From NCBI RefSeq assembly GCF_015680705.1, contig NZ_JADNYP010000011.1:62001-126000 (forward strand): DNA of 64,000 bases, read 5' to 3'. Made by a program: the position numbers and the translations under genes. Shown here piece by piece: positions 44,949-64,000 of the stretch. Every line of letters starts with the position of its first letter. Within the stretch, counting starts at the first letter, position 1. Source of the DNA: Pseudomonas fulva. GTDB lineage: Bacteria; Pseudomonadota; Gammaproteobacteria; Pseudomonadales; Pseudomonadaceae. A model generated the notes under the pieces. It had not been told where the DNA came from. It saw only the letters and a program-made list of their open reading frames with translations, and made no database searches.

Positions 44949-45779
44949 ATGAATCCGCATTCGCAAGCTGCCATATCGCCGTGGGCGCTGGTCAGCAATC
45001 TTTGGCAATATCGCCGGTTGATCCTGCAGATGGCACGGCGAGAAGTGGTCGGCCGCTACAAGGGCTCCGTGATGGGGCTGTTGTGGTCGTTCCTGACGCC
45101 ACTGTTCATGCTGGCGGTCTATACATTCGTTTTTTCCGTAGTGTTCAAGGCGCGCTGGACAACTTCTCCGGACGAAGGCAAAGGTGATTTCGCCATTCTG
45201 CTGTTCGCCGGCATGATCGTGCACGGCCTGTTCGCCGAAGTGTTGAACCGGGCGCCAAGCTTGATCCTGGCCAACGTCAACTACGTCAAGAAGGTCGTCT
45301 TCCCGCTGGAGATACTGCCCGTCATCTCCATGTGTACCGCGCTGTTCCATAGCGGCGTGAGTCTGTTGGTGCTGCTGTGTGCCATCATCATCGTCAATGG
45401 CGAATTCCACGCCACCATGCTGCTGGTGCCGCTGGTCGTGCTCCCCTACATCATTTTCGTGCAGGGGCTGGCCTGGATCCTGGCATCGCTGGGTGTCTAT
45501 CTGCGCGACGTCGGGCAGACCATCGGCATCATCACCATGGTGATGCTGTTCCTGTCCCCGGTGTTCTTCCCGGTCAGTTCCCTGCCGGTGGAGATGCGCC
45601 CCCTGATGGAAGCCAACCCGCTGACCTTCATCATCGAACAGGTCCGGGAGGTCCTGATCTGGGGGCATCTTCCAGACTGGATGGGGTTGGGCCGCTATTC
45701 GCTCATGGCCCTGGTCACCGCCTGGCTAGGCTACGCATGGTTCCAGAGAACAAGAAAGGGGTTCGCTGATGTCCTCTAA
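44949..45779 (+). CDS. wzm: O-antigen ABC transporter permease
   Basis: A 276-residue ABC-2 type permease with six membrane helices. It has the family opening (LWQYRRLILQMARREVVGRYKGSVMGLLWSFLTPL) and the C-terminal FPVSSLPVEMRPLMEANPLTFII. It exports lipid-linked O-polysaccharide across the inner membrane with the ATPase encoded next, whose start lies 11 bases inside this gene. Presence of Wzm/Wzt defines the locus as ABC-dependent. Confidence 0.92.
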   Translation: MNPHSQAAISPWALVSNLWQYRRLILQMARREVVGRYKGSVMGLLWSFLTPLFMLAVYTFVFSVVFKARWTTSPDEGKGDFAILLFAGMIVHGLFAEVLNRAPSLILANVNYVKKVVFPLEILPVISMCTALFHSGVSLLVLLCAIIIVNGEFHATMLLVPLVVLPYIIFVQGLAWILASLGVYLRDVGQTIGIITMVMLFLSPVFFPVSSLPVEMRPLMEANPLTFIIEQVREVLIWGHLPDWMGLGRYSLMALVTAWLGYAWFQRTRKGFADVL

Positions 45780-47145
45780 CGCCTCGCACGATGCAGACGC
45801 AGCGATCGTCGTCAACGCCGTATCGAAGTGCTATCACATCTACAACAAGCCCCAGGACCGACTCAAGCAGTCGATCATGCCTCGCCTGCAGCGGACGCTG
45901 GGCATGCAGCCGAAAGCCTACAGCCGCGAATTCTGGGCGTTGAAGGACGTGTCCTTTACCCTCAGGAAAGGTGAAACGCTCGGCATCATCGGTCGTAACG
46001 GCTCGGGCAAGTCGACCTTGCTGCAATTGATCTGCGGCACGCTGAGCCCCAGCCAAGGCCATATCCAGACCTTCGGCCGGGTCGCGGCACTGCTGGAGCT
46101 GGGCGCCGGCTTCAACCCAGAATTCACCGGCCGGGAAAACGTCTACCTCAGCGCGGCCTTCTATGGCCTGAGCAAAGAGCAGACCGACGCGCGATTCGAC
46201 GATATCGTGGATTTCTCCGAAATCAGGGATTTCATCGATCAGCCGGTCAAGACCTATTCCAGCGGCATGTTCGTGCGTCTGGCCTTCGCCACCATCGCGC
46301 ATGTCGATGCCGATATCCTGATCATCGACGAAGCATTGGCCGTTGGCGACGCGATCTTCACCCAAAAGTGCATGCGCTTCCTGCGCAAGTTCAAGGAAGA
46401 AAAGACCCTGCTGTTCGTCAGCCACGACAGCAAGTCCGTGATCGCCCTCTGCGACAAGGCGCTCTGGCTGTCCGACGGGCAGATGAAAGAGCTTGGCGAG
46501 GCCAAGCAGACCTGCGAGCACTACCTGAACTTCATTCTCGGGGCGACGCAGGACAAGCAACTTCAGGAACAGACCCAGGCGTCGTCCGCGGCCAAGAAGC
46601 TTCGTGAAATATGGGCCGGCGAGCATCGCTACGCCCCCGCCGGGCCTTCGAGCCTGTTCCAGCACAACCTCGAGGCGTCCGCGCAGACGGCCCCGCTCGG
46701 TGCCGAAATCAAGTACGTCAACGTCACCGCGGAAGACGGCAGCGATATCCGCGCGCTCAAGGGCGGCGAGGTGGTGACGCTGTCCATTCATGCGGTCGCC
46801 TACACCGTGCTCAAGCACCCGGTGCTGGGTTTCTACGTCAAGGACCGGCTCGGCCAGTTCCTGTTCGGCAGCAACACCCTGAGCATCGAGGATCGTGTGC
46901 CACCGATCGCGGAGCCTGGGCAGGAGATCAAGGCGCAGTTCACGTTCGCCATGCCGTGGCTGGCCAACGGCGACTATTCGATCCAGGCAGCCGTTGCCGA
47001 TGGCACCCAGCAAGACCATACCTCGCACCATTGGGTCCACGACGCCATCATCTTCCATTCGAGCCACGACCCTTCGGCGTCAGGGCTGATCGGCATCCCC
47101 ATGCTGGAAACGAAGCTCACTGTCGATAGCGAGACAGGTCTGTAG
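45769..47145 (+). CDS. wzt: O-antigen ABC transporter ATPase with C-terminal polysaccharide-binding domain
   Basis: A 458-residue Wzt. The ATPase (about residues 1-260) has Walker A IIGRNGSGKSTLLQL, the signature YSSGMFVRLAFA and Walker B ADILIIDEALAVGD. Residues about 290-458 form an extra beta-sandwich (VVTLSIHAVAYTVLKHPVLGFYVKDRLGQ) of the Wzt_C type, which in E. coli O8/O9a recognises the capped end of the finished chain. Such a domain suggests that export here also depends on a specific chain end. It overlaps wzm by 11 bases. Confidence 0.93.
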   Translation: MSSNASHDADAAIVVNAVSKCYHIYNKPQDRLKQSIMPRLQRTLGMQPKAYSREFWALKDVSFTLRKGETLGIIGRNGSGKSTLLQLICGTLSPSQGHIQTFGRVAALLELGAGFNPEFTGRENVYLSAAFYGLSKEQTDARFDDIVDFSEIRDFIDQPVKTYSSGMFVRLAFATIAHVDADILIIDEALAVGDAIFTQKCMRFLRKFKEEKTLLFVSHDSKSVIALCDKALWLSDGQMKELGEAKQTCEHYLNFILGATQDKQLQEQTQASSAAKKLREIWAGEHRYAPAGPSSLFQHNLEASAQTAPLGAEIKYVNVTAEDGSDIRALKGGEVVTLSIHAVAYTVLKHPVLGFYVKDRLGQFLFGSNTLSIEDRVPPIAEPGQEIKAQFTFAMPWLANGDYSIQAAVADGTQQDHTSHHWVHDAIIFHSSHDPSASGLIGIPMLETKLTVDSETGL

Positions 47146-47315: not shown

Positions 47316-50300
47316 TTGACCAATTCACAAGAACGCCCACTGGAGGCCAGTGTGCTCGACACGTTGCGTGAAGAAAACGCCGCATTGCAGGGGAGCCGGA
47401 GCCACTTGCAAGCTCGGCTGATCGAGGCCGACAAGACGCGATATCGGCTCGAAGGCCAACTGGCGGATGCCGAGAACGTTCGGTACCAGTTGCAGGACCA
47501 GATGACGAGGGCGCTGGCCGACGCCGAAGCGGTCCGGCAACAGATCGAGCACCAGGCAGCCGACACCCAGAGGGCGCTGGACAGCGCCTTGCAACAGCTG
47601 GAAGTGATCGACGCCCTGCGTGCCGAAGCGCTCGATGCGCGCGATCGGCTCGCCAAGGCTCAGGCCGAAATCGACAGCCTGCGGGCGGAGCTGGCGCAGA
47701 GCAACGAGCGGGCCAAGCGCGCCTCCGATGAGTTCGCAGGCATCATCCAGGCGATTCACCGGTCCACCAGCTGGAAAACCACCGCGCCCCTGCGTCTGCT
47801 TTCGCGGGCGGTTCGCGGGCAGCGTCCGCTGGTCGCTGGCGGCCTGCGCGCTCGCGTGCTCGAGCAGCTCAAGCCGTTGTATTGGGCGCTGCCGCCCAAG
47901 TACCGTACCTCGGTGCTGGACTGGGGGTATCGCAACCTGGAGTTCGTGTTCCGTGGCAGCCCGCATTACGAAATGTGGAAGAACGGCACTCAGACACCCA
48001 TCGAGGTCACCGACAGCACGCTGATCACGCTGGAGGGCGTCCTGCCGGCCGAGCAGGTAGAGGGCACCATCGCCATCCACCTGCACATGTATTACGACGA
48101 CCTGGCTCCGGAGTTCGCCGGTTACCTGAGCAACATGCCCTTCGCCTACGACCTGTATGTGTCGGTGAAGGATGCCTCGGGTGAAGCGGCCTGCCGCGCC
48201 GCGTTCGACAAGCTGGAAAACTGCAAGGCGCAGACCTTCCAGGTCGTCAACAACCGGGGCCGGGACATCGCGCCGATGTTCTGCACCTTCGGTGAAGCGC
48301 TGCGTCGCTACGATTACCTGGCCCACCTGCACAGCAAGAAGTCGCTGTACAACGCAGGCGCCACCGAAGGCTGGCGTCAGTACCTGGCGGGCAACCTGCT
48401 CGGTAGCACGACCACCATCCGCCGGATCTTCACCCTGCTGGCAGGCGACAAGGGCATCGTCTATCCACAGAACTTCAAATCGGTGCCCTGCCAGGCCAAC
48501 ACCTGGCTGGCCAACAAGGGCATGGGCACCGCCTGGTGCGCACGCCTGGGTATCTCGCCGGTACCCCAGGGCTACTTCGATTTCCCGGCGGGCTCCATGT
48601 TCTGGGCCAGAGGCGACGCGCTGCGGCCGTTGTTCAACGCCAACATCACCATCGAGGATTTCATCGAGGAAGCGGGCCAGACCGACGGTACCTTCGCGCA
48701 CTGCCTGGAGCGGCTGCTCGTGCTCAGCGCGCGCAAGCAGGGGCTGCAGGCCGGCATCATCAAGGACATGCAGAACCCGACCTGGTCTTCGTGGCGGCTC
48801 GATCAGCTGCTGGCGCGTCCTTTCGACTGGATGGTGGGGAATTTCGCCAATCCGGTGATCAAGTGCATCGGTTTCGATATCTTCGACACGCTCCTGGTAC
48901 GTCCGCTCATCGATGCCGAGACCACCAAGCGCATCGTGGCCGCCAACTTGCCAGAACCCCTGGCGAAGCTGTTCGGCGAGTGCCGTGTCGCCGCGGAAGC
49001 CGAAGCGCGCAAGCACAAGGGCAAGGATGTCGACCTGCACGACATCTACCAGACCTTCCAGCAGCTCACCAAGCTGCCCGACGCCGACGTACAGACCATT
49101 CGCGAGCTCGAAGAGCAGATCGAATACCGCTCGCTGACCGCCCGCAGCGGTGGTGTCGAGCTGTTCGAGCAGGCCAGGGCGACCGGTAAGCCGGTGCTGT
49201 TGATGTCCGACATGTTCCTGCCCAAGTCGCTGATCGTCCAGGCGTTGAACGCCAACGGCATCCACGGCTGGACCGAGTTCTACCTGTCGAACGAAGTGGG
49301 CCTGCGCAAGGATACCGGGGCGCTCTATGACCATGTGCTGCAGGTCTACGGGCTGCAACCCAACGAGTTCATCATGGTTGGCGACAACGAGCGCTCCGAC
49401 CTGCAGATCCCGTGCGACAAAGGCTGTGTCGGGTTGCACATCCTGCGTCCGACAGAGATGGCCAGGGGCATGCCGCGCTTGCGCCGCATCGTCGAGAAGT
49501 ACGAGTTCGCCCATGACCTGAATGCCGAACTGACCCTGGGCCTGCTGTTCAGGCACAACTTCGCGGCGGTGTCCTACCCCGAGCTGAACGCCGGGTCGCT
49601 GTTCCATGCCACGCCCTACAACATCGGCTACAGCCTCGTGGGCCCCATGCTGACCGGCATGGCGCAATGGCTGATCGACAACGCCAAGCGCGACGAAGTG
49701 GGTGAGTTGCACTTCCTGGCGCGTGAAGGCCAACTGATGAAGGCCGTCTACGATGTCTGGGCCGAAGGCCTCGACAAGGCGCCCCCTTCCAGGTACCTGG
49801 TGGTTTCGCGCCGCACGTGCAGCGTGCCATTGCTCGAGACGCTGGACGACGTATTCGCCATCGCCAAGGGCGACTACTACGCCAACACGGCCTCCAGCTA
49901 CCTGCTGGAGCGCTTCGGGCTGGAGCTGGACGACGCGACATGGCGCGAGCTGCAGGCGAGTACCGGCATCGGCAGGGAAACGACCGTGGAAGTGCGCAAC
50001 GGCAACCTGGACGTCCTGAAGCCGCTGCTCGAGAAGCTGGCCGGCACCATCTTCAAGCAGGCGCAAGTGGAGCGCGCCGGCTTGACGCGGTACCTGGACT
50101 CCATGGGGTTGATGGGAAGCCGGAAGCAGGCGGTCGTGGACGTTGGCTATGGGGCTACCATCCAGAACTACCTCTGCAAGCTGACTGGCCAGAACATCCA
50201 TGGCTACTACCTGGCCACCGATGAGCGCTCGCTCAAGGTCTCCGAGCAACATGACGTCATCATTCGTGGCTGCATGATGCACAACGTCGAGCACAGCCTG

Positions 50301-50657
50301 GCGGCTCCGATCATGTACCTGCGCAGTTTCGAGCTGGAAAAGCTGCTCAGCTCCAGTGAAGGGCAGGTGGTCAAGTACACCACGGTCGAGGGTGGCCAGG
50401 TCCAGGCCCAGCACCGCGAGCTGTCTGCGCAGGAGCGCGCTGGCGACGCCTTCAGGGAAGCACTGCGCAATGGCGTGATTCAGTTCGCCAGGGATGCGGT
50501 GCAGGTTCGCCAGACGTTGCTGGCCAGCTTCGCGCCGTCATTGGAAATCAGCCGGGCCCTGGCAGACGAGTTCTTCGTCAAGCATTCGACCGACGAGTTG
50601 AAGTTGCTGGGCGACGTGATGCTGGATGACCACTACTGCGGTCGCGGTGTGGTTTGA
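47316..50657 (+). CDS. Large coiled-coil / RgpF-like / HAD fusion protein of polysaccharide assembly
   Basis: A 1113-residue protein from a TTG start with CCGGAG nine bases upstream. Residues about 15-145 are a charged coiled coil (LREENAALQGSRSHLQARL and similar heptads). Residues about 245-510 match the rhamnan-synthesis RgpF family (IAIHLHMYYDDLAPEFAGYL, VVNNRGRDIAPMFCTFGEAL, YLAHLHSKKS, FPAGSMFWARGDAL). Residues about 515-720 form a HAD-like domain (GFDIFDTLLVRP, LLMSDMFLPKS, MVGDNERSD). The last 380 residues contain LHFLAREGQLMKAVYD and VDVGYGATIQNYL, known from HAD-linked polysaccharide proteins. It probably adds rhamnose-type residues. Its exact reaction is unknown. Confidence 0.82.
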   Translation: MTNSQERPLEASVLDTLREENAALQGSRSHLQARLIEADKTRYRLEGQLADAENVRYQLQDQMTRALADAEAVRQQIEHQAADTQRALDSALQQLEVIDALRAEALDARDRLAKAQAEIDSLRAELAQSNERAKRASDEFAGIIQAIHRSTSWKTTAPLRLLSRAVRGQRPLVAGGLRARVLEQLKPLYWALPPKYRTSVLDWGYRNLEFVFRGSPHYEMWKNGTQTPIEVTDSTLITLEGVLPAEQVEGTIAIHLHMYYDDLAPEFAGYLSNMPFAYDLYVSVKDASGEAACRAAFDKLENCKAQTFQVVNNRGRDIAPMFCTFGEALRRYDYLAHLHSKKSLYNAGATEGWRQYLAGNLLGSTTTIRRIFTLLAGDKGIVYPQNFKSVPCQANTWLANKGMGTAWCARLGISPVPQGYFDFPAGSMFWARGDALRPLFNANITIEDFIEEAGQTDGTFAHCLERLLVLSARKQGLQAGIIKDMQNPTWSSWRLDQLLARPFDWMVGNFANPVIKCIGFDIFDTLLVRPLIDAETTKRIVAANLPEPLAKLFGECRVAAEAEARKHKGKDVDLHDIYQTFQQLTKLPDADVQTIRELEEQIEYRSLTARSGGVELFEQARATGKPVLLMSDMFLPKSLIVQALNANGIHGWTEFYLSNEVGLRKDTGALYDHVLQVYGLQPNEFIMVGDNERSDLQIPCDKGCVGLHILRPTEMARGMPRLRRIVEKYEFAHDLNAELTLGLLFRHNFAAVSYPELNAGSLFHATPYNIGYSLVGPMLTGMAQWLIDNAKRDEVGELHFLAREGQLMKAVYDVWAEGLDKAPPSRYLVVSRRTCSVPLLETLDDVFAIAKGDYYANTASSYLLERFGLELDDATWRELQASTGIGRETTVEVRNGNLDVLKPLLEKLAGTIFKQAQVERAGLTRYLDSMGLMGSRKQAVVDVGYGATIQNYLCKLTGQNIHGYYLATDERSLKVSEQHDVIIRGCMMHNVEHSLAAPIMYLRSFELEKLLSSSEGQVVKYTTVEGGQVQAQHRELSAQERAGDAFREALRNGVIQFARDAVQVRQTLLASFAPSLEISRALADEFFVKHSTDELKLLGDVMLDDHYCGRGVV

Positions 50658-56198: not shown

Positions 56199-58313
56199 TC
56201 AGGTTTTCTTCAGCAGACGCGAGGCGTCCAGTGCGTTGCGCACAGCTTCGAGGTAGGTGTGACCAAAGCGCCGATCGGGTTCCAGGTAGGCGCCTTCGGC
56301 CCATTCGTTCCACGCATTGATGAACACCAGGCGCTCGTCGCCGAAGTGTTGCTCACGGGTTTCGGCAATCGCCTCCTCGAGCCAGGCCTGGAAGGCCCCT
56401 GGTGTCGAATGTTCGAAGCAATTGCCTGCCTCCTGGCGCCGCGCCGTGTTGTCCCAGCCAGGCATGACGCCCTTGAAGCGCGTATAGCCGGGCGCGGGGC
56501 GCGAGGCATAGCTCACCGCCAGCTCGCGGTAGTCCGCCGAATGGCCGGAGAAACCAGGCTTGAGCAGCTCGCCCGTGGGCGGCTTGGGCTTGACCAGGCC
56601 ACCTGGAGGGAATTCGATGGTCGCATCGCAGCCGTACAAGGAGGGGTGAGAGCCCGACTTGGCCAGCTCGAACGACTCGACCATCGCAATGTAGATTTCC
56701 CCCACGCCCCGTTCGCGGCAGACTTCGCGCCAGCGAGCGGCGGTCTTGACGAAGTCGGGGAACAGGGTTGGCCGGTAGATGACCAGCAAGGGTCTCTCAT
56801 CGATCCTGATGTAGCGGTCATCCTTGAAATAGCGGATCAGGTCCTCGATCACCGCCATGTCGTCTTCGTCGCTATGCGCCTGGGCGATCAGCACTTCCTT
56901 TTCCAGGCCGTCCCAACGACGTGTCCAGTTTTCGTTCGCCCAGCACAGGCAGAACGGGATGTCGGGCCTGTCGCTTTGCAGCAACTGCTCGATGGGGCGC
57001 TCCAGCAGACGCTTGCCACCGAACCAGTAGTAGTAGAAGCAGAAACCGTGGACGCCATAGCGTTGCGCCAGGTCGGCCTGCTCTTGCAGCACTTCGAGCA
57101 GGCGCAAGTCATAGTAGCCGAGGTCGGCGGGGAGCCTCGGCTGGTAGTGGCCGACGAAATTGGGCTCAGCCTTGCTGACGTTGGCCCACTCGGTAAAGCC
57201 TTTGCCCCACCATAGGTCGTTCTCCGGGACCGGATGGAACTGAGGCAGGAAGAAAGCGATCAGGCGGGGGTCGAAGTGCCGTTCGATGGTTGCCGCCCAC
57301 TTCCTGTTCAGCGTGCTGACGTTCTTCGCGATGCTGGCCATCTTGAAGTCGTTACCGGCCGCGGCGGTGGTCTTGGACAGGTGGTGAATGACCGTGGCGT
57401 GCGGATTGTAGTAGACCTCGTGGCCCTCGGCGCGAATGGTCAGGCACAGGTCGCTGTCTTCGCAGTAGCAGGGCAGGAACTCTTCGGAGAAGCCGCCGAT
57501 GCGCTTGAGCAAGGCGGTAGGGGCGAGCAGGCACGCACCAGACACATAGTCGACCCGCCGGGTGTAGTTGAAGCGCGGCTCGTTCGGGTTCTCGGCGAAA
57601 CCGATCATGGTCGAAACGCCATCGGGCGCCAATGCAGCGCCAGCCTCTTGCAGATGGCCGCTGGGGTAGACGAACTTGGGCCCGACGGCACCGACGTTCT
57701 CGAACTCGACGAAGGTGTCCAGCAACGCCTCGAGCCAGCCAGCGGTGACCTGGACGTCATTGTTGAGATAGACCGTGAATGCCCCGTTGACGTGGGCCAT
57801 GGCGCGGTTGCAGTTGCGCAGGAAGCCGAGGTTCTGTTCGCCGCGCAGGTAGCGAAGGTTGGCAATGGGCTCGAGCAACGCCTGGGTGTCATCAGTGGAG
57901 GCGTCATCCGCGATGATGATTTCCACATCCAGTTCCGGCGACAGGTGTCGCTGGATGGAAGCCAGGCACTCGAGCGTTAGCTTCACGTTGTTGAACACGG
58001 GGATGAGGATGGATACCAGCGGCAGGGCGCCTGGGGCTTGGAACTGCAACTTGGCAGCCTGAGCCGGCAAGTCGGCTGGATCGAAATCCAGTACGTCGAG
58101 GGCTGCGACAGGGTTTCGGGCGCGATGCGCCGATTTCGCCTGGGCGATGTGTTCCTTGACTGCGGGATAATCCTGCCATTCCCAAGTGCCGTCGGCAGTG
58201 GCAAGTTGTGTCGCTGCAAGTAGAGGCAGAGGAGACATCGACTCAGCAGCCGCATGAGTCTGAGTTTCGCCAGTTGCGATTTTCTGCGGTGACGAGTCGT
58301 GATGATGGGTCAT
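56199..58313 (-). CDS. Family 2 glycosyltransferase fused to a WbsX domain
   Basis: A 704-residue two-domain protein. Residues about 98-330 form a GT2 (PLVSILIPVFNNVKLTLECL, IIADDASTDDT, VYLNNDVQVTAGWLEALLD, CYCEDSDLCLTIRAEGHEV). Residues about 350-700 form a WbsX domain related to glycoside hydrolase family 99 (LIAFFLPQFHPVPENDLWWG, then KGFTEWANVSKAEP, CFYYYWFGGKRLLE, VFINAWNEWAEGAYLEPD). WbsX domains occur in many O-antigen loci and are thought to be transferases or chain-modifying enzymes. The start overlaps the stop of the preceding gene by four bases. Confidence 0.88.
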   Translation of the reverse strand: MTHHHDSSPQKIATGETQTHAAAESMSPLPLLAATQLATADGTWEWQDYPAVKEHIAQAKSAHRARNPVAALDVLDFDPADLPAQAAKLQFQAPGALPLVSILIPVFNNVKLTLECLASIQRHLSPELDVEIIIADDASTDDTQALLEPIANLRYLRGEQNLGFLRNCNRAMAHVNGAFTVYLNNDVQVTAGWLEALLDTFVEFENVGAVGPKFVYPSGHLQEAGAALAPDGVSTMIGFAENPNEPRFNYTRRVDYVSGACLLAPTALLKRIGGFSEEFLPCYCEDSDLCLTIRAEGHEVYYNPHATVIHHLSKTTAAAGNDFKMASIAKNVSTLNRKWAATIERHFDPRLIAFFLPQFHPVPENDLWWGKGFTEWANVSKAEPNFVGHYQPRLPADLGYYDLRLLEVLQEQADLAQRYGVHGFCFYYYWFGGKRLLERPIEQLLQSDRPDIPFCLCWANENWTRRWDGLEKEVLIAQAHSDEDDMAVIEDLIRYFKDDRYIRIDERPLLVIYRPTLFPDFVKTAARWREVCRERGVGEIYIAMVESFELAKSGSHPSLYGCDATIEFPPGGLVKPKPPTGELLKPGFSGHSADYRELAVSYASRPAPGYTRFKGVMPGWDNTARRQEAGNCFEHSTPGAFQAWLEEAIAETREQHFGDERLVFINAWNEWAEGAYLEPDRRFGHTYLEAVRNALDASRLLKKT

Positions 58314-61300
58314 TGCACGACTCCTTCCAGCAGCTGACGTTCACCGGAGGAAACTTGCAGCGAACGGTCGAGTATCGACTCATAGGCTTGACCCAACTGC
58401 TGGCACAGGCGCTTCAAGTTATATTGCTTGGCACGTTTGCGACCTGCAGCACCTACCGTACGAATCTTCTTCGGGTTACGGCAGAACTGGCGCAGCCTGT
58501 TTGCGACGGCTTTGGTATCACCATGCTCGAACGTAAAGCCGGTGATGCCCTCTTCGATGAGCTCAGGCAATGCGCCCCACCGGTAAGCCAGCACCGGGCG
58601 GCTGGCTGCCATTCCCTCGAGCACGGTGCGACCGAACGTTTCCTGACAATGGGAAAGATTGAGCACGATGTTGGTCTGGGCCAACGCAGCTTGCGGGCTG
58701 GCTGCGTAAGGCAGGATGGAGAAGTTGGCTGGCAGCCGGCCGTCAGCCTCCAGCCTACGCAAGGCTGCGACGCAGGGCGTTTCGGGACCAATCAGCAACA
58801 GCTGCAGATTGGGAATGTCGGCAGCCGTATCGCAAGCCAGCTGCAGCAGGTCTTGCACACCCTTTTTAGGTTGGTTGCTGCTGATCAATGCTGCAGTGAT
58901 GCGTTTGTGATCCACCGAATTGGGCAAATCAAACGCTTTCAGATCGACGATGTTTCCAACTACATGAGTAGCCCCTGGCTTGGAAAGATAGCGTGCCGTG
59001 AAGGCCGAATTGGCCAAGACGTGATCGGCACGTTCCAGCGCCTCGGTTACGATCTGGTCTGCCGGTAGTCCGATCGAAGCGCATAGATCGGCGTCCTGGG
59101 CGGGCGACTCGTGAGCATGGAGAACTGCCGGCACCTGTGCCAAGCGTGCGGCAACCAGCGGCTCGCGTAGCATCAGGGTATTGGCTTGTACCAAATCGAC
59201 CGAATGCGTACGGATCAGTGCAGAGAAGCGTTCGACCGCTATCGAGCAGGGCACTGTGTCGGCGCGCCACAGCAGGGTTGGAATACAGGCGACCAGCAGC
59301 GCACGAGCCCGTAACTCTTCAAGATAAAGCGGGTTGGCAACACTCGGTACGCTGACGATTGCGTTCAGCTCCATCGCAACACAGGCATCCAGCACATCCA
59401 ACAGACTAAGTTCTGCGCCGAACAGCTGCGGATTGGCAGCATGAGCACAAAGCAGCACTGTTGGCCGCCCTGGGCGGTGTTGCTGGCGACCAGCGAAGGT
59501 GGGATGGCTAGGGTCGTGGCCCGCTTGGCGCCCTACCTGTTCGTAATGCAGCAAAGCTGGCAGGCCACTTTCACGCGCCTCGACACTTTGCTCCAAGTAC
59601 CAAGGCGTATTGAAGTCGGGGCCTGGTTCACGGCCTTCAGCATGACCATGGGTAAGGTAATGCTGCCACGGGTCGACATCAGCGCCTTGCAGGTCTGGGT
59701 TACGTTGCAGATACCACTCTGCATCGAACAGGGCCGGCAGCACAGAGTCGGCTGGCTCCGACGGAGCACCGTGTGCCTCAAACGGTTGCGCAGAAGCCGC
59801 GTCCGAATGCTGCGACAAGGCTTGAAGCGGTTCAGGTGTCTCGGTGCTGACTGGACCTTGACCCTGTACGATGGAGATTGATAGCAATCTTGCTTCGCGG
59901 ATCGAATCGATTACCTGACAGTCCTGCAATCCCTGGATGCCAGGAACCAAGTCCAACGGGTAGGCAAGCAGGTGACGACCCACGACCAGCACTCGAGGAA
60001 CCGTTAGCTGCTGCTCTGCAAGCACCACGTCCACTGCTCCGCTGACAGCCCGACGGAGGATGGCATCACCAACCGGGGACGGGCGTTGGTAGTCTGGCCA
60101 GTGCAACAAGGCGATTCGCTTGCCATGCTTTTGCAAACGGTCAAGTACGAAAAGCAGCGTCTTGGCCGTGCGTGCGCCTTCACTGAGGTCACTGATCAAC
60201 AGCCAGTCATAGTTGGTTTCGACATCGGCGGCATGCAGCATAGGTGCTGGCGCCGGAAAGGCTCGAGTGGCAGAGCCCGTAGACAATCGCAGGCCGGCTG
60301 CATCCTCTGTCATCGCGTGCCAGGTATCGGCCAGCGCACTGTAGAGTTGACGCAGGCCGAAGAATGTCGAGCGTACGTGCGTACCGGAGGCCATGGTCAG
60401 TGATTGCGGCAGGTGCCTGGCAATGACCAGGGGGACACCAGGGCAAACATGAAGTAGCGCGTCGGTGCCGTGGCAGCGTAGCAGCCGCTGACGCAGCTCG
60501 TGGTCAGCCGCGACACGCACTTCGTCCCAACCGCCAAGGTCCCGTACTGCTTCGCGTCGCACCATGATGGTGGAAACGCTCGGTTCGATCAGACTACTCT
60601 CGATACGCCAGTTTTGGAAATGCAGCTGGGTGTCGGACCTGACCCAGTCGGCCAGCGTACCGACCAAGTTCGAGTTTTCCAGTAGCGGAGCGACCATCAG
60701 CTCCAGGCGCTGAGGATGAGACCAGTCGTCACTGTCGTGGTTGATCAGGAACGTACCGGTGGCGTGCTCCAGCGCAGTGTTGCGTGCAGCGTAGGCACCA
60801 CGGTTGACCGGTTGTTGCAGCAGGAGAACGCGTTTGTCCTCGCGGGCGAGCGCTGATACGCGCTCGACCGTGGCGTCTGTACTGCAGTCATCGACTACCA
60901 GGATTTCCAGGTTGCTCCAACTTTGGGCGAGCAGGCTGCGCAGAGCCGTTTCGATGAATGCCTCGGCGTTGAATGCCGGCATGATAACGCTGATCTTCGG
61001 TTGCGCCTTAGGCAGGATCTGCGCTGCACAGGTTGCCTGAAGATTATCAAGGGTGAGCGCCGCTTCGGCATTGCAAAGACCGACCGGTGCCAGGTCGGCC
61101 GTCGCTAGCGCACGATTGACCCAAAACAAACGTTGCGAGGCTTGCGAGTGATGTTCTTCGTCACCCGTGTCAAGCCCGACGTTTGCCGCTGCCAGGTATA
61201 GATCGGGATCGGCACCTTTGTCTGCGATAGCTTTGCCAATGCAGTCCTGAGCTAGCGACTGTTGACCGTTGCGAAAAAGCACTTCGGCCCGGAGCAAGGT

Positions 61301-61675
61301 CGGACCCAGATTTCCAACATAGGGTGGCAGAGGCTGAGCGAGAGCATCCAGGTATGCCAATGCATCTGGCCACTGCAACGCACTGGCGTACCAGCGGACC
61401 AGTGCCCAAGAAGCATAAGCGTATTCTTCACTGTCCTCGGTCTGCTTCTGCCAGGCGCTGAGCTCGGGCAGAGCCAGCCGGGTGAAGCCACCCCATAACG
61501 CCGACTCAAGACGATAAGCTTTCAGGTAGCGGGGGAGGCGACCCTCAGCGAGGCCATGCTGCTCATAATGCTGTTGCGCATCTGCTCCAGCGATGGCTAC
61601 ATCCGGATAAGTCGCCAAGTACCACTGGGCATCGACAACGCTTGTATACGGGGCTACCGACTTGAACTCAGACAT
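58310..61675 (-). CDS. 1121-residue glycosyltransferase with GT2 and GT4 domains and repeated YL-PD-HY-G-EGR motifs
   Basis: Residues about 12-50 carry the motif DAQWYLATYPDV...HYEQHGLAEGRLP. A helical region follows, then a GT2 (from about 228, ISVIMPAFNAEAFIETALRS, VVDDCSTDATVERV, NHDSDDWSHPQRL). A second motif copy lies at about 647-686 (FDAEWYLQRNPDLQ...HYLTHGHAEGREP) and a worn third copy directly after (PWYLEQSVEARESG...HYEQVGRQAGHDP). Residues about 735-1100 form a GT4 (LFGAELSLLDVLDAC, HAHESPAQDADL, ETFGRTVLEGMAASRPVLAY). It overlaps both neighbours (8 and 4 bases). It probably transfers two different sugars. Confidence 0.85.
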   Translation of the reverse strand: MSEFKSVAPYTSVVDAQWYLATYPDVAIAGADAQQHYEQHGLAEGRLPRYLKAYRLESALWGGFTRLALPELSAWQKQTEDSEEYAYASWALVRWYASALQWPDALAYLDALAQPLPPYVGNLGPTLLRAEVLFRNGQQSLAQDCIGKAIADKGADPDLYLAAANVGLDTGDEEHHSQASQRLFWVNRALATADLAPVGLCNAEAALTLDNLQATCAAQILPKAQPKISVIMPAFNAEAFIETALRSLLAQSWSNLEILVVDDCSTDATVERVSALAREDKRVLLLQQPVNRGAYAARNTALEHATGTFLINHDSDDWSHPQRLELMVAPLLENSNLVGTLADWVRSDTQLHFQNWRIESSLIEPSVSTIMVRREAVRDLGGWDEVRVAADHELRQRLLRCHGTDALLHVCPGVPLVIARHLPQSLTMASGTHVRSTFFGLRQLYSALADTWHAMTEDAAGLRLSTGSATRAFPAPAPMLHAADVETNYDWLLISDLSEGARTAKTLLFVLDRLQKHGKRIALLHWPDYQRPSPVGDAILRRAVSGAVDVVLAEQQLTVPRVLVVGRHLLAYPLDLVPGIQGLQDCQVIDSIREARLLSISIVQGQGPVSTETPEPLQALSQHSDAASAQPFEAHGAPSEPADSVLPALFDAEWYLQRNPDLQGADVDPWQHYLTHGHAEGREPGPDFNTPWYLEQSVEARESGLPALLHYEQVGRQAGHDPSHPTFAGRQQHRPGRPTVLLCAHAANPQLFGAELSLLDVLDACVAMELNAIVSVPSVANPLYLEELRARALLVACIPTLLWRADTVPCSIAVERFSALIRTHSVDLVQANTLMLREPLVAARLAQVPAVLHAHESPAQDADLCASIGLPADQIVTEALERADHVLANSAFTARYLSKPGATHVVGNIVDLKAFDLPNSVDHKRITAALISSNQPKKGVQDLLQLACDTAADIPNLQLLLIGPETPCVAALRRLEADGRLPANFSILPYAASPQAALAQTNIVLNLSHCQETFGRTVLEGMAASRPVLAYRWGALPELIEEGITGFTFEHGDTKAVANRLRQFCRNPKKIRTVGAAGRKRAKQYNLKRLCQQLGQAYESILDRSLQVSSGERQLLEGVVQ

Positions 61676-62849
61676 GGGCAGCCACTCGGCTGATCACTTT
61701 GCGAGCACGATGCAGCGTATGGTTGGATTGATCCATGGCTGCAAGGATTTCTCGGTTAGCCAGGTAATAGTTTTCCAGCTCTTCTTGTACGAGATGCAGT
61801 TGGGAAAGGAGAAGCTCGTTTTCTTCTTCGAAGGCCTTGGTACTGGCCGCAGCCGTAGCCAAATCCGCGCTGGACTTTTTCTGCGCGGCAAGTGCTAGGT
61901 CTAGCTCCTTTTTCAGCTTGGCGTATTTTTCATCGAGGGCTACGCTCTCCAAGTGGCGCTTTTCCAACTCTTCTTGTACTTCGTGCAACTGAGCGAGCAA
62001 CATTTCGTTTTCCGCGACTAGCGATTTCGAGCCTACTTCGGCCTGCGCCGGCTGTTGTTCGCTCGCGAGAGCGTGGGCCAGCTGTTGCTTCAGCGCAGCT
62101 AGCTGATCCTTGAGTGACTGATTTTCCGCATCTCGCTCCGCCAGCGTTTCCTGCGCCAGACGCAGCTGCGCCAGCACCTGCTCGCGGTCGCCTTGGGAAT
62201 TCTGTTGCATTGTCCGTATCGGTTCGGCTTCGTGACGCAGGCTAGAAATGATTCTCTCCCGTTCATGGAGCTGCAGCTGAGTATTGGGAAGCTGCCGGCC
62301 AGCATGAATCAAATCCAGCAGTTCGACAAAGCCCGCATTGGTTGCCAACGCACGATTGGATCGGAACTCCGGCTCGCCGTTTGGCAGCCAGGCTGCAGCT
62401 TCAAGTGCTTCGTACAGTGTCCAGCATTCAGGAGCCATTTGCTCGAACAGACCGGCCAGGGTTGCAGCCAACGGATCGGAAGATATGGGCAGTGGCTCAT
62501 CGCGATAGGCCAGGCCTAGGCGTTCAAAAAGCGCCTGTGCGGGAACTCTGTCTATGTTCACCAGAACGAGGCGCTGGCGCAGCGTACGACGCAATTGCAG
62601 AACCGCACGCTGCTCTGCCTGCCATCGTTGCAGCGCAGTGGCGACATCGACGGCTTCGCCATCAGCCAACCAGGCCCAAGGCGCGCGGTAGAACCACACC
62701 CGTTGGCGTGCTGCGCCAACGCCGGTGAGGTCAACGTCAGCCATGAACTGCGCAGCAGGTTTCCATTCGATCGAGAAAGCGTCGTCAAAAGAGGCGCCTA
62801 CATATGCGCGGCTGGCCTGTTCACTCAGGCCCGAGAGTAGGGTTTGCAT
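61668..62849 (-). CDS. Coiled-coil protein of the polysaccharide locus, unknown function
   Basis: A 393-residue protein without signal peptide or membrane helix. The ATG at 62849 was chosen because GGAG lies six bases before it (an ATG at 62882 lacks a site). Residues 1 to about 185 form a globular part rich in Trp, Arg and Leu (VWFYRAPWAWLADGE, RQRLVLVNIDRVPAQALFERLGL). Residues about 195-375 are a long coiled coil, with the same heptad unit occurring twice (ENEMLLAQLHEVQEELEKRH and ENELLLSQLHLVQEELENYY). It lies between ugd and the large glycosyltransferase. No family function is known to me. Confidence 0.75.
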   Translation of the reverse strand: MQTLLSGLSEQASRAYVGASFDDAFSIEWKPAAQFMADVDLTGVGAARQRVWFYRAPWAWLADGEAVDVATALQRWQAEQRAVLQLRRTLRQRLVLVNIDRVPAQALFERLGLAYRDEPLPISSDPLAATLAGLFEQMAPECWTLYEALEAAAWLPNGEPEFRSNRALATNAGFVELLDLIHAGRQLPNTQLQLHERERIISSLRHEAEPIRTMQQNSQGDREQVLAQLRLAQETLAERDAENQSLKDQLAALKQQLAHALASEQQPAQAEVGSKSLVAENEMLLAQLHEVQEELEKRHLESVALDEKYAKLKKELDLALAAQKKSSADLATAAASTKAFEEENELLLSQLHLVQEELENYYLANREILAAMDQSNHTLHRARKVISRVAAHV

Positions 62850-62890
62850 CGATGTCTCCATAGAATACGGTAGCCATGTCATGGCCGCGC

Positions 62891-64000
62891 TCAGTCCTTA
62901 CTGTACAGGTCGCGGGTGTAAATTTTGTCGAGTATATCGCTGATTTCATCGGTAAGCCGATTGGCCACGATGACATCGCAGCTCTCTTTGAACTCTTTCA
63001 GATCTGTGACTACCCGGGAATTGAAAAAAGTTGATACGGTCAGTACGGGCTCGTAAACCACCACCTCCACGCCTTTCGCCTTCAGGCGCTTCATGACGCC
63101 CTGAATGGACGAGGTCCGAAAATTATCTGAACCGGCCTTCATGATCAGCCGGTAGATTCCTACCCGATGGGGGTGGCGTTTTAGGATGGCTTCGGCGATG
63201 AAGTCTTTGCGGATGCGGTTGGAATCGACAATCGCCCGAATCAAGGTTTGGGGTATATCGCTATAGTTAGCGAGCAATTGTTTAGTGTCCTTGGGCAAGC
63301 AATAACCGCCGTAGCCAAAGGAAGGATTGTTGTAATGACTTCCGATACGCGGGTCGAGCCCGACACCTTCGATGATCTGGCGGGTATCTAGACCGTGGCT
63401 TTCGGCATAGCTATCAAGCTCGTTGAAATATGCTACCCGCATAGCAAGGTAGGTATTGGCGAAGAGTTTGACTGCTTCGGCTTCGGTAGCGCCGGTATGT
63501 AGCACCGGTACGTCTTTTTTTATTGCGCTGTTTTGCATCAGTTCGGCAAACAGCCTGGCACCTGCAGTGGCTCCGCCGATGACAATGCGAGAAGGATAAA
63601 GATTGTCGTATAGAGCCTGCCCTTCACGTAGGAATTCAGGCGAAAAAATGATGTCATCAAAATCGAACTTCTGGCGCATGCGTTCGGTAAAGCCGACCGG
63701 CACCGTTGACTTGATCACAATGGTTGCTGACCGATTGAGCCTACGCACATTTCTGATCACCGATTCAACAGAGCTAGTATCGAAGCGGCCGCTACCAGCG
63801 TCATAGTTGGTAGGCGTCGCGATGATGATGAAATCCGCATCCGTATAAGCCTCAGCACCATCGAGCGTTGCGCGCAGATTGAGCGGCTTGTTGTCAAGAA
63901 AGTCTACCAGCGCCTGATCAACGATGGGCGAACGGCGCTGGTTGATGGCGTCGACCTTGACGGGGTCGCAGTCAAGCGTTACAACCTGCGCATGCTGGGC
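62891..64000 (-). CDS. ugd: UDP-glucose 6-dehydrogenase, N-terminus outside the window
   Basis: The frame is open from the window edge (64000) to the stop at 62891, giving 369 residues. By comparison with E. coli Ugd only about 20 N-terminal residues, including the NAD-binding GxGxxG, are missing. Clear motifs are [64 protein letters not shown] and the active cysteine in [16 protein letters not shown]. It makes UDP-glucuronate, which points to an acidic sugar in the polysaccharide. It heads the minus-strand run of ugd, coiled-coil protein and three glycosyltransferases. Confidence 0.94.

Follow-up and report, generated by a model that had tools for sequence, protein, structure and literature searches.

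Coiled-coil proteins of polysaccharide export loci

KfiB, encoded in the K5 capsule locus of Escherichia coli, is described in different terms in the literature excerpts considered here. A review citing the work of others portrays it as stabilizing KfiA–KfiC, with chain length more uniform, and, in strain Nissle, as taking no direct part in polymerization while interacting with KpsM and KpsT (PMC12834895). It has also been placed in a membrane complex with KfiA and KfiC (PMC9371971); the candidate KfiB of E. coli K5 left acceptors unelongated (PMC11666461), and kfiB of K5 has been termed a putative sulfotransferase (PMC13171606). Here, KfiB is compared with a 404-residue coiled-coil protein encoded at 61668–62882 (minus strand) of a 64,000-nucleotide stretch of Pseudomonas fulva (contig NZ_JADNYP010000011.1, positions 62,001 to 126,000; hereafter the window). 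We propose, with a probability of about 0.68, that the product of this gene is an accessory subunit, akin to KfiB, of a polysaccharide machine dependent on an ATP-binding cassette (ABC) exporter.

WbdD of E. coli O9a and WbbB, O7 ORF6, and O4 ORF7 of Klebsiella pneumoniae, likened here by their description in excerpts of PMC3482155 and PMC11231755, also combine an N-terminal domain with a long coil in an ABC-dependent locus. O7 ORF6 follows the order methyltransferase, coil, and glycosyltransferases (PMC11231755, in the part consulted). Unlike these terminators, the 404-residue protein has no recognized methyltransferase or kinase domain, and its coil contains a conserved module instead of a spacer. 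Coil-tailed Sulfotransfer_3 proteins, such as L064 of Cereibacter sphaeroides, have their parts in the order seen in the 404-residue protein, and a coil end of the SWKxTxPLR type is common to them and to the relatives L016, L056, and L057.

A repeated 22-residue module shared with KfiB

The original prediction described a coiled-coil protein of 393 residues with one unit repeated. The coil and the repeat were both recovered; the length applies if the in-frame ATG at 62849 is used, whereas the upstream ATG at 62882, which gives 404 residues, is backed by a preceding AAGGA stretch and by conservation that begins at this Met in the P. parafulva relative. An N-terminal domain (residues 1–198; 62289–62882) is followed by a helical, predicted coiled-coil region (residues 199–403; 61674–62288), in which AlphaFold2 places about 200 helical residues, i.e., long helices at 199–275 and 285–403 (196 residues), with low to moderate confidence (mean predicted local distance difference test score, pLDDT, of 51; about 38–76 in ten-residue blocks). 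The unit of 22 residues lies at residues 291–312 (ENEMLLAQLHEVQEELEKRHLE; 61947–62012; 42.0 bits) and, 63 residues further on, at residues 354–375 (ENELLLSQLHLVQEELENYYLA; 61758–61823; 55.6 bits), the latter being the last and full-consensus copy. A degenerate third copy (about residues 232–253; 62124–62189) is visible as a DNA repeat match at 62137–62189 and is absent from the 10-bit motif listing. The protein closes with a basic amphipathic helix (residues 383–404; 61671–61736), which may be a membrane-proximal end as judged by helical moment and charge; these are 0.49 and +4 for the last 20 residues, compared with only 0.25 and +1 in the counterpart L051.

The repeat is genuine and greatly exceeds chance expectation, since the best ungapped 22-mer self-match scores 72 versus 30.3 ± 4.5 (maximum 46) in 150 heptad-preserving shuffles. 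Across proteins, module copies reach 11–63 bits, whereas 3600 such shuffles gave at most 16.6 bits, with the 99th percentile at 6.7. The consensus reads E-N-E-L-L-L-x-Q-L-H-x-V-Q-E-E-L-E-x-Y-Y-L; Q8, Q13, and E17 are invariant in 32/32 distinct copies, drawn from 35 copies scoring at least 15 bits that were gathered with the motif profile, which favors conserved copies, and E1 (31/32), H10 and L16 (30/32 each), and L6 (29/32) are nearly so. Mean entropy is 1.33 bits off the assumed a/d core and 1.26 bits within it. Under either likely register, several conserved positions fall off the core, so the module does not appear to be a mere spacer. The strings QLHQVQEELE and LLLQLHQVQEEL were not mentioned in the literature text searched.

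A 562-residue protein of E. coli Nissle 1917, annotated as 'hypothetical protein', was taken as KfiB because of its length and its position between kfiA and kfiC, where an IS481 remnant also lies; no kfi genes were listed in seven other E. coli stretches (L077–L083). In this protein the module occurs at residue 417 with 35.3 bits, the next best 22-mer scoring 0.2, and a partial second copy is discernible by eye. The motif profile (A2) matches KfiB at 4.1e-15, compared with 0.0017 or worse, and 4.4 bits or less, for 14 other proteins, and KfiB also stands clearly above every reversed sequence with this profile. Direct BLASTP similarity between the window protein and KfiB is confined to the module (58% over 26 residues, E 4.5e-5). 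In both proteins the module is located near the end of the coil; however, KfiB combines one full copy with a fragment and continues for about 120 residues beyond, whereas in the window protein there are two copies, the last followed by 29 residues. Judged by these sequence scores, membership of both proteins in one group is firm as regards the module.

The N-terminal domain and its remote link to sulfotransferases

For the N-terminal domain, group membership is tentative for the window protein alone and moderately supported through its relatives, whose profiles are designated A7 (L058/L015) and A8 (the L056 group), with A9 for the window group. KfiB resembles L058 at both ends (39% over 147 residues, E 4.6e-29; 26% over 193 residues, E 1.3e-12) as well as L015 (E 4.3e-13), and L058 and L015 match each other in BLASTP at 2e-17. 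The A4 profile detects whole KfiB at 9e-16 (14 other proteins at 0.0026 or worse), and A7 detects the KfiB N-terminus alone at 6.8e-27 (14 others at 2.2e-4 or worse, the latter being a canonical sulfotransferase); neither profile scores a reversed sequence better than 0.0038. The A8 match to KfiB (2.8e-6) is weak since reversed KfiB scores 4.9e-4. In hhalign, with E-values of single comparisons that are uncorrected for the seven made, the window group aligns with L058/L015 (7.2e-5, probability 63%) and with the L056 group (8.1e-5, 61%), which in turn align with each other (8.4e-8, 94%); the window group against L037/L039 yields 0.0073 (5%), and unrelated control UDP-glucose dehydrogenases yield 0.43, 0.24, and 0.32. 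The window protein thus appears, by hhalign and profile search, to carry a remote relative of the sulfotransferase-like KfiB N-terminus, a likeness that is weak for the window protein itself.

The tie of the group to sulfotransferases is transitive and remote, because the window group reaches the canonical enzymes only via the profiles of its relatives. L058/L015 align with canonical sulfotransferases over most of the domain (hhalign 5.8e-4, probability 29%), and one such enzyme (P0001) matches L058 at 1e-4 and L015 at 0.012; the L056 group gives 0.038. In contrast to L064-type sulfotransferases, the GxxRSGTS P-loop and the KDPR motif are lost in L058 and L015 where the region aligns, and no GxxRSGTS stretch was seen by eye in the window protein. 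The twelve N-terminal domains align poorly, with Trp as the sole invariant column, so that no conserved active site is apparent. The domain resembles a sulfotransferase-type fold devoid of the P-loop and is probably non-catalytic. KfiB has no significant Pfam-A domain, and the 404-residue protein no curated Pfam or NCBIfam domain, coil noise such as SMC and XRCC4 aside. Searches with the full protein returned no relative among solved structures (E up to 1) and, at the protein level, nothing in phages or plasmids; the best solved-structure match of the N-terminal-domain profile (E 0.53) is not credible.

Distribution and architecture of the relatives

Full-length relatives are rare, the relatives search finding one in 57 genomes, the window's own. 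When the C-terminal 115 residues were used as a query, two of 298 genus genomes were positive, including the window's own; the second, P. parafulva NBRC 16636 (G138), has the gene before the same glycosyltransferase and was the sole match in a scan of genome contigs. The same query found 5/369 class genomes, and the motif profile 5/398 phylum genomes. Two family searches located the module in 1/12 and 1/197 genomes, and two further searches in 5/320 (one dropped as false) and 6/295; these genome samples overlap, and each contains its center genome. L055, a match in G1305, was dropped before all counts as a protein of CpoB/YbgF appearance (by eye) lacking the module. The distinct carriers comprise 17 genomes and one phage-like contig, i.e., 18 proteins, mostly in polysaccharide loci as judged by eye; the module is not locus-specific. 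On contig IMGVR_UViG_3300023183_000039, the single-copy relative L051 (5161–6159) lies near an integrase-like gene; it is similar to the window protein both in the region of the module (E 1e-12) and across 53 residues of the N-terminal domain (E 9e-8).

At a threshold of 10 bits or more, the 18 proteins contain one to six copies. A single copy is present in L051, L040, L058, L013, L014, L038, and L054; two are present in the window protein, its P. parafulva relative, L015, L016, L056, L057, L052, and L053; L039 has three, L059 four, and L037 six, the first copy of L056 and the first and third of L059 being less certain as they score below the highest shuffle (16.6). Ten non-redundant spacings (63, 91, 123, 57, 109, 64, 77, 91, 70, and 74 residues), chosen by us with orthologous or repeated values counted once, are all 0, 1, or 4 modulo 7, a post hoc grouping, and five of the ten divide evenly by 7 (binomial 0.008). 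Among the nine multi-copy proteins with the N-terminal domain, eight have their top-scoring copy in the last position, L059 being the exception. A 171-bp tandem array of the unit in L037 (4.3 copies at 93% match) shows that coils do lengthen in nature when units are duplicated. Near this six-copy protein, a second coil protein (L037 12797–14581) also contains tandem DNA repeats (126, 231, and 357 bp), and both coils in the locus seem to have grown, given the repeats in each.

The N-terminal domain appears to precede the coil in 12/18 module proteins, on uneven evidence, and is missing from six; domain names in these architectures were given by eye. The module stands at the start in L013 and L054, followed by WYLxxxPDV repeats and a coil, and in L038, L052, and L053, where another domain and a long coil come next, while in L014 it lies between repeats and a methyltransferase-like end. 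The coils of L016, L056, and L057 terminate in the SWKxTxPLR-type motif, and the same motif type follows the coil of the RgpF/HAD protein in the window. WYLxxxPDV repeats recur in glycosyltransferases and module proteins (window 58310–61675, L013, L040, L054, L056, L057, and L059).

Locus context, exporters, and a second coil motif

The gene is flanked upstream by a UDP-glucose dehydrogenase family gene (62891–64000, minus strand; domain scan), which runs off the window, and overlaps by 8 bp the next gene (58310–61675, minus strand), encoding a GT2+GT4 glycosyltransferase with WYLxxxPDV repeats according to the open reading frame list and domain scan. The ABC exporter genes wzm (44949–45779) and wzt (45769–47145), both identified by domain scan, and the gene for a protein with RgpF and HAD domains (47316–50657) are on the plus strand. 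A UDP-glucose dehydrogenase gene and an ABC exporter are thus common to this locus and that of KfiB, which has KpsMT in place of Wzm and a Wzt with Wzt_C. By eye, the cluster contains rml genes and is adjoined by housekeeping genes including gyrA and cmk, a position which we take to be a usual O-antigen site of Pseudomonas. The guanine-plus-cytosine fraction of 61668–62882 is 0.569 versus 0.651 in window positions 1–40000, a low value that would fit, but does not prove, horizontal acquisition of the cluster.

Among ten proteins scanned from relatives' loci, 7/7 ATPase candidates (L038, L039, L040, L052, L053, L056, and L057) match ABC_tran, the L058 candidate matches Poly_export and SLBB, and L037 686–2131 and L054 6504–7727 have no domain match. 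In L057 and L052 the module gene is immediately preceded by a BexC/CtrB/KpsE-family match (E 2.5e-84 and 1.7e-77) that stays below the curated cut-off, and the Wzt of P. parafulva is 84.9% identical to that of the window. In the fetched stretches, at least 9/17 loci, the window and P. parafulva included, have an ABC exporter, a count made without L037, L054, L013, L014, L015, L016, L058, and L059. Type I secretion-like genes, identified by eye, border glycan clusters at L021 3074–6281, L019 7861–11109, and L015 11224–12039, and the L015 cluster is also bordered by an RTX-like protein (by eye).

A second, C-terminal coil motif, ELVKAEAQLDLIKDLLLREPGL, was captured in a profile of eight sequences (A11). 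In L013, L038, L052, and L053 the module protein itself bears it; in four further cases a separate coil protein does so, encoded by the adjacent gene in L015 and L040 and at a distance of about 12 kb in the window genome and 9 kb in P. parafulva. The second motif was found in 9/17 carrier genomes, the other eight being below threshold, versus 0/34 others (Fisher 8e-6); the comparison genomes were hand-chosen, with G050 less well tested as it is known to be module-free only from the full-length search, and the carrier side is circular because 8/9 positive genomes supplied the profile. The informative parts are the 0/34 and G1517, an independent match on another contig (E 5.3e-7). The module was also compared with the second motif as a possible equivalent, an idea that the result did not support (hhalign 0.14). 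Tentatively, and with the odds rather against it, the module could act as a common docking code in polysaccharide assembly systems that depend on ABC exporters, by which unrelated scaffolds (KfiB-like, TPR-type, WYLxxxPDV-type, and methyltransferase-type) would join one complex, often with the second motif on the same or a neighboring protein; tandem duplication might then tune the complex and, indirectly, glycan length.

Chain-length control and alternative explanations

The gene is read as KfiB-like, and its product as a probably non-catalytic scaffold, because an accessory part is reported for KfiB, namely stabilization of the polymerase and contact with the ABC exporter. The stalk would be a coiled coil with two module copies ending in the basic amphipathic helix, and at the module, a possible site of docking or oligomerization, glycosyltransferases and further coiled-coil proteins may be brought together at the membrane, next to the exporter. 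Several observations weigh against this interpretation. The window-group profile A9 matches the KfiB N-terminus weakly (3.4e-4; best control 4.9e-3), the window group has no hhalign match to canonical sulfotransferases (0.39), and the key sulfotransferase link of the group, despite its uncorrected E-value, carries a low hhalign probability. Both AlphaFold2 models are of a quality that does not allow the fold to be confirmed (mean pLDDT 51 and 44). The heptad register was assigned by us, and an alternative places Q13 in the core; the phase count omits long spacings in L052 (341 residues, which misfits the 0/1/4 pattern) and L053 (333 residues, which fits). In addition, a distance of about 14.5 kb separates the gene from wzm/wzt, which are on the opposite strand, and no glycan gene was recognized by eye in the 12.9 kb around L051.

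The original prediction regarded the 404-residue coil as a possible ruler of the WbdD kind, which would hold a terminator at a distance from the polymerase and thereby fix O-antigen length. Much of its groundwork was reproduced: Wzt has a C-terminal recognition domain (Wzt_C, E 2.9e-30), the RgpF/HAD protein begins with a coil (47367–47762) that extends by eye to a TSWKTTAPLR motif near residue 150, and no methyltransferase or kinase domain was detected in the ten window cluster proteins scanned. A capping enzyme just outside the window was also looked for, and of the two methyltransferase-like proteins about 10–13 kb away neither exceeds the Pfam cut-off (a 485-residue protein, FkbM E 0.0071; a 470-residue protein with a methyltransferase-like part by eye and no Pfam methyltransferase match). 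The expectation that coil length could change by duplication is borne out by the variation in copy number and by the tandem array in relatives, which favor a ruler, as does the layout of N-terminal domain, coil, and basic amphipathic C-terminus, which resembles WbdD as partly described in PMC11231755. The ruler role of the 404-residue protein itself was nevertheless not supported and is unlikely: no terminator domain is recognized by Pfam or NCBIfam, the distal domain matches no Pfam family and shows a single invariant Trp column, the module, with its conserved off-core residues, also occurs in proteins without that domain (6/18) and in capsule-type exporter loci, and KfiB is described as accessory. 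The spacer signature, i.e., length kept while sequence drifts, is absent from its coil, which is 67.5% identical to that of P. parafulva with a 4-residue gap, and present in the RgpF/HAD coil, which has 132 residues in both, no gap, and 43.9% identity versus 80.4% in the rest of the protein; this comparison rests on two orthologues. The coil of the 485-residue partner is 62.1% identical to its P. parafulva counterpart with 22 gap columns including a 21-residue block, and these 485/507-residue proteins (L017 11487–12944 and L011 5323–6846) thus differ by three heptads. The RgpF/HAD coil, therefore, looks more ruler-like and its protein is the better candidate, given its exact length at 44% identity and the methyltransferase in P. 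parafulva. That the RgpF/HAD protein is the ruler and the 404-residue protein auxiliary, the strain having lost or never had the methyltransferase, falls slightly short of an even chance. In P. parafulva, the orthologue (L076 565–4518, minus strand), encoded directly after wzt, has the order methyltransferase, coil, RgpF/HAD (Methyltransf_11, 37.0 bits against a cut-off of 21.2), like K. pneumoniae O7 ORF6 in the excerpt of PMC11231755; the window version, however, lacks the methyltransferase part, and no other terminator was identified in the window. This possibility is compatible with, rather than opposed to, a KfiB-like scaffold.

An active, unrecognized transferase with a coil tail, be it a transition transferase, a sulfotransferase, or a terminator, is improbable to a similar degree as a ruler in the 404-residue coil. 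Coil-tailed sulfotransferases of the active type do exist (L064, Sulfotransfer_3 E 9.7e-9, ending in STSWKVTRPIR), the L058 and L015 domains align with canonical ones, and kfiB has been called a putative sulfotransferase; yet the P-loop and KDPR are lost as described above, and the K5 candidate was inactive as a transition transferase in the portion of PMC11666461 consulted. It is very hard to credit that the protein is an ordinary coiled coil without a specific role, similar to the others through coil composition; spurious matches such as SMC and XRCC4 do occur, but the module scores and the low motif scores of the 14 non-KfiB proteins speak against it. It is more likely that the 404-residue protein, as a KfiB-like scaffold, holds the machinery together than that it measures sugar length.

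Implications for polysaccharide assembly

The comparison ties KfiB to a sporadic protein group of O-antigen and capsule loci through a motif whose shortness and conservation make it amenable to mutagenesis, and the ruler question in the window locus is redirected to the RgpF/HAD protein. How such machines are held together, and whether a scaffold influences chain length, thereby become testable.

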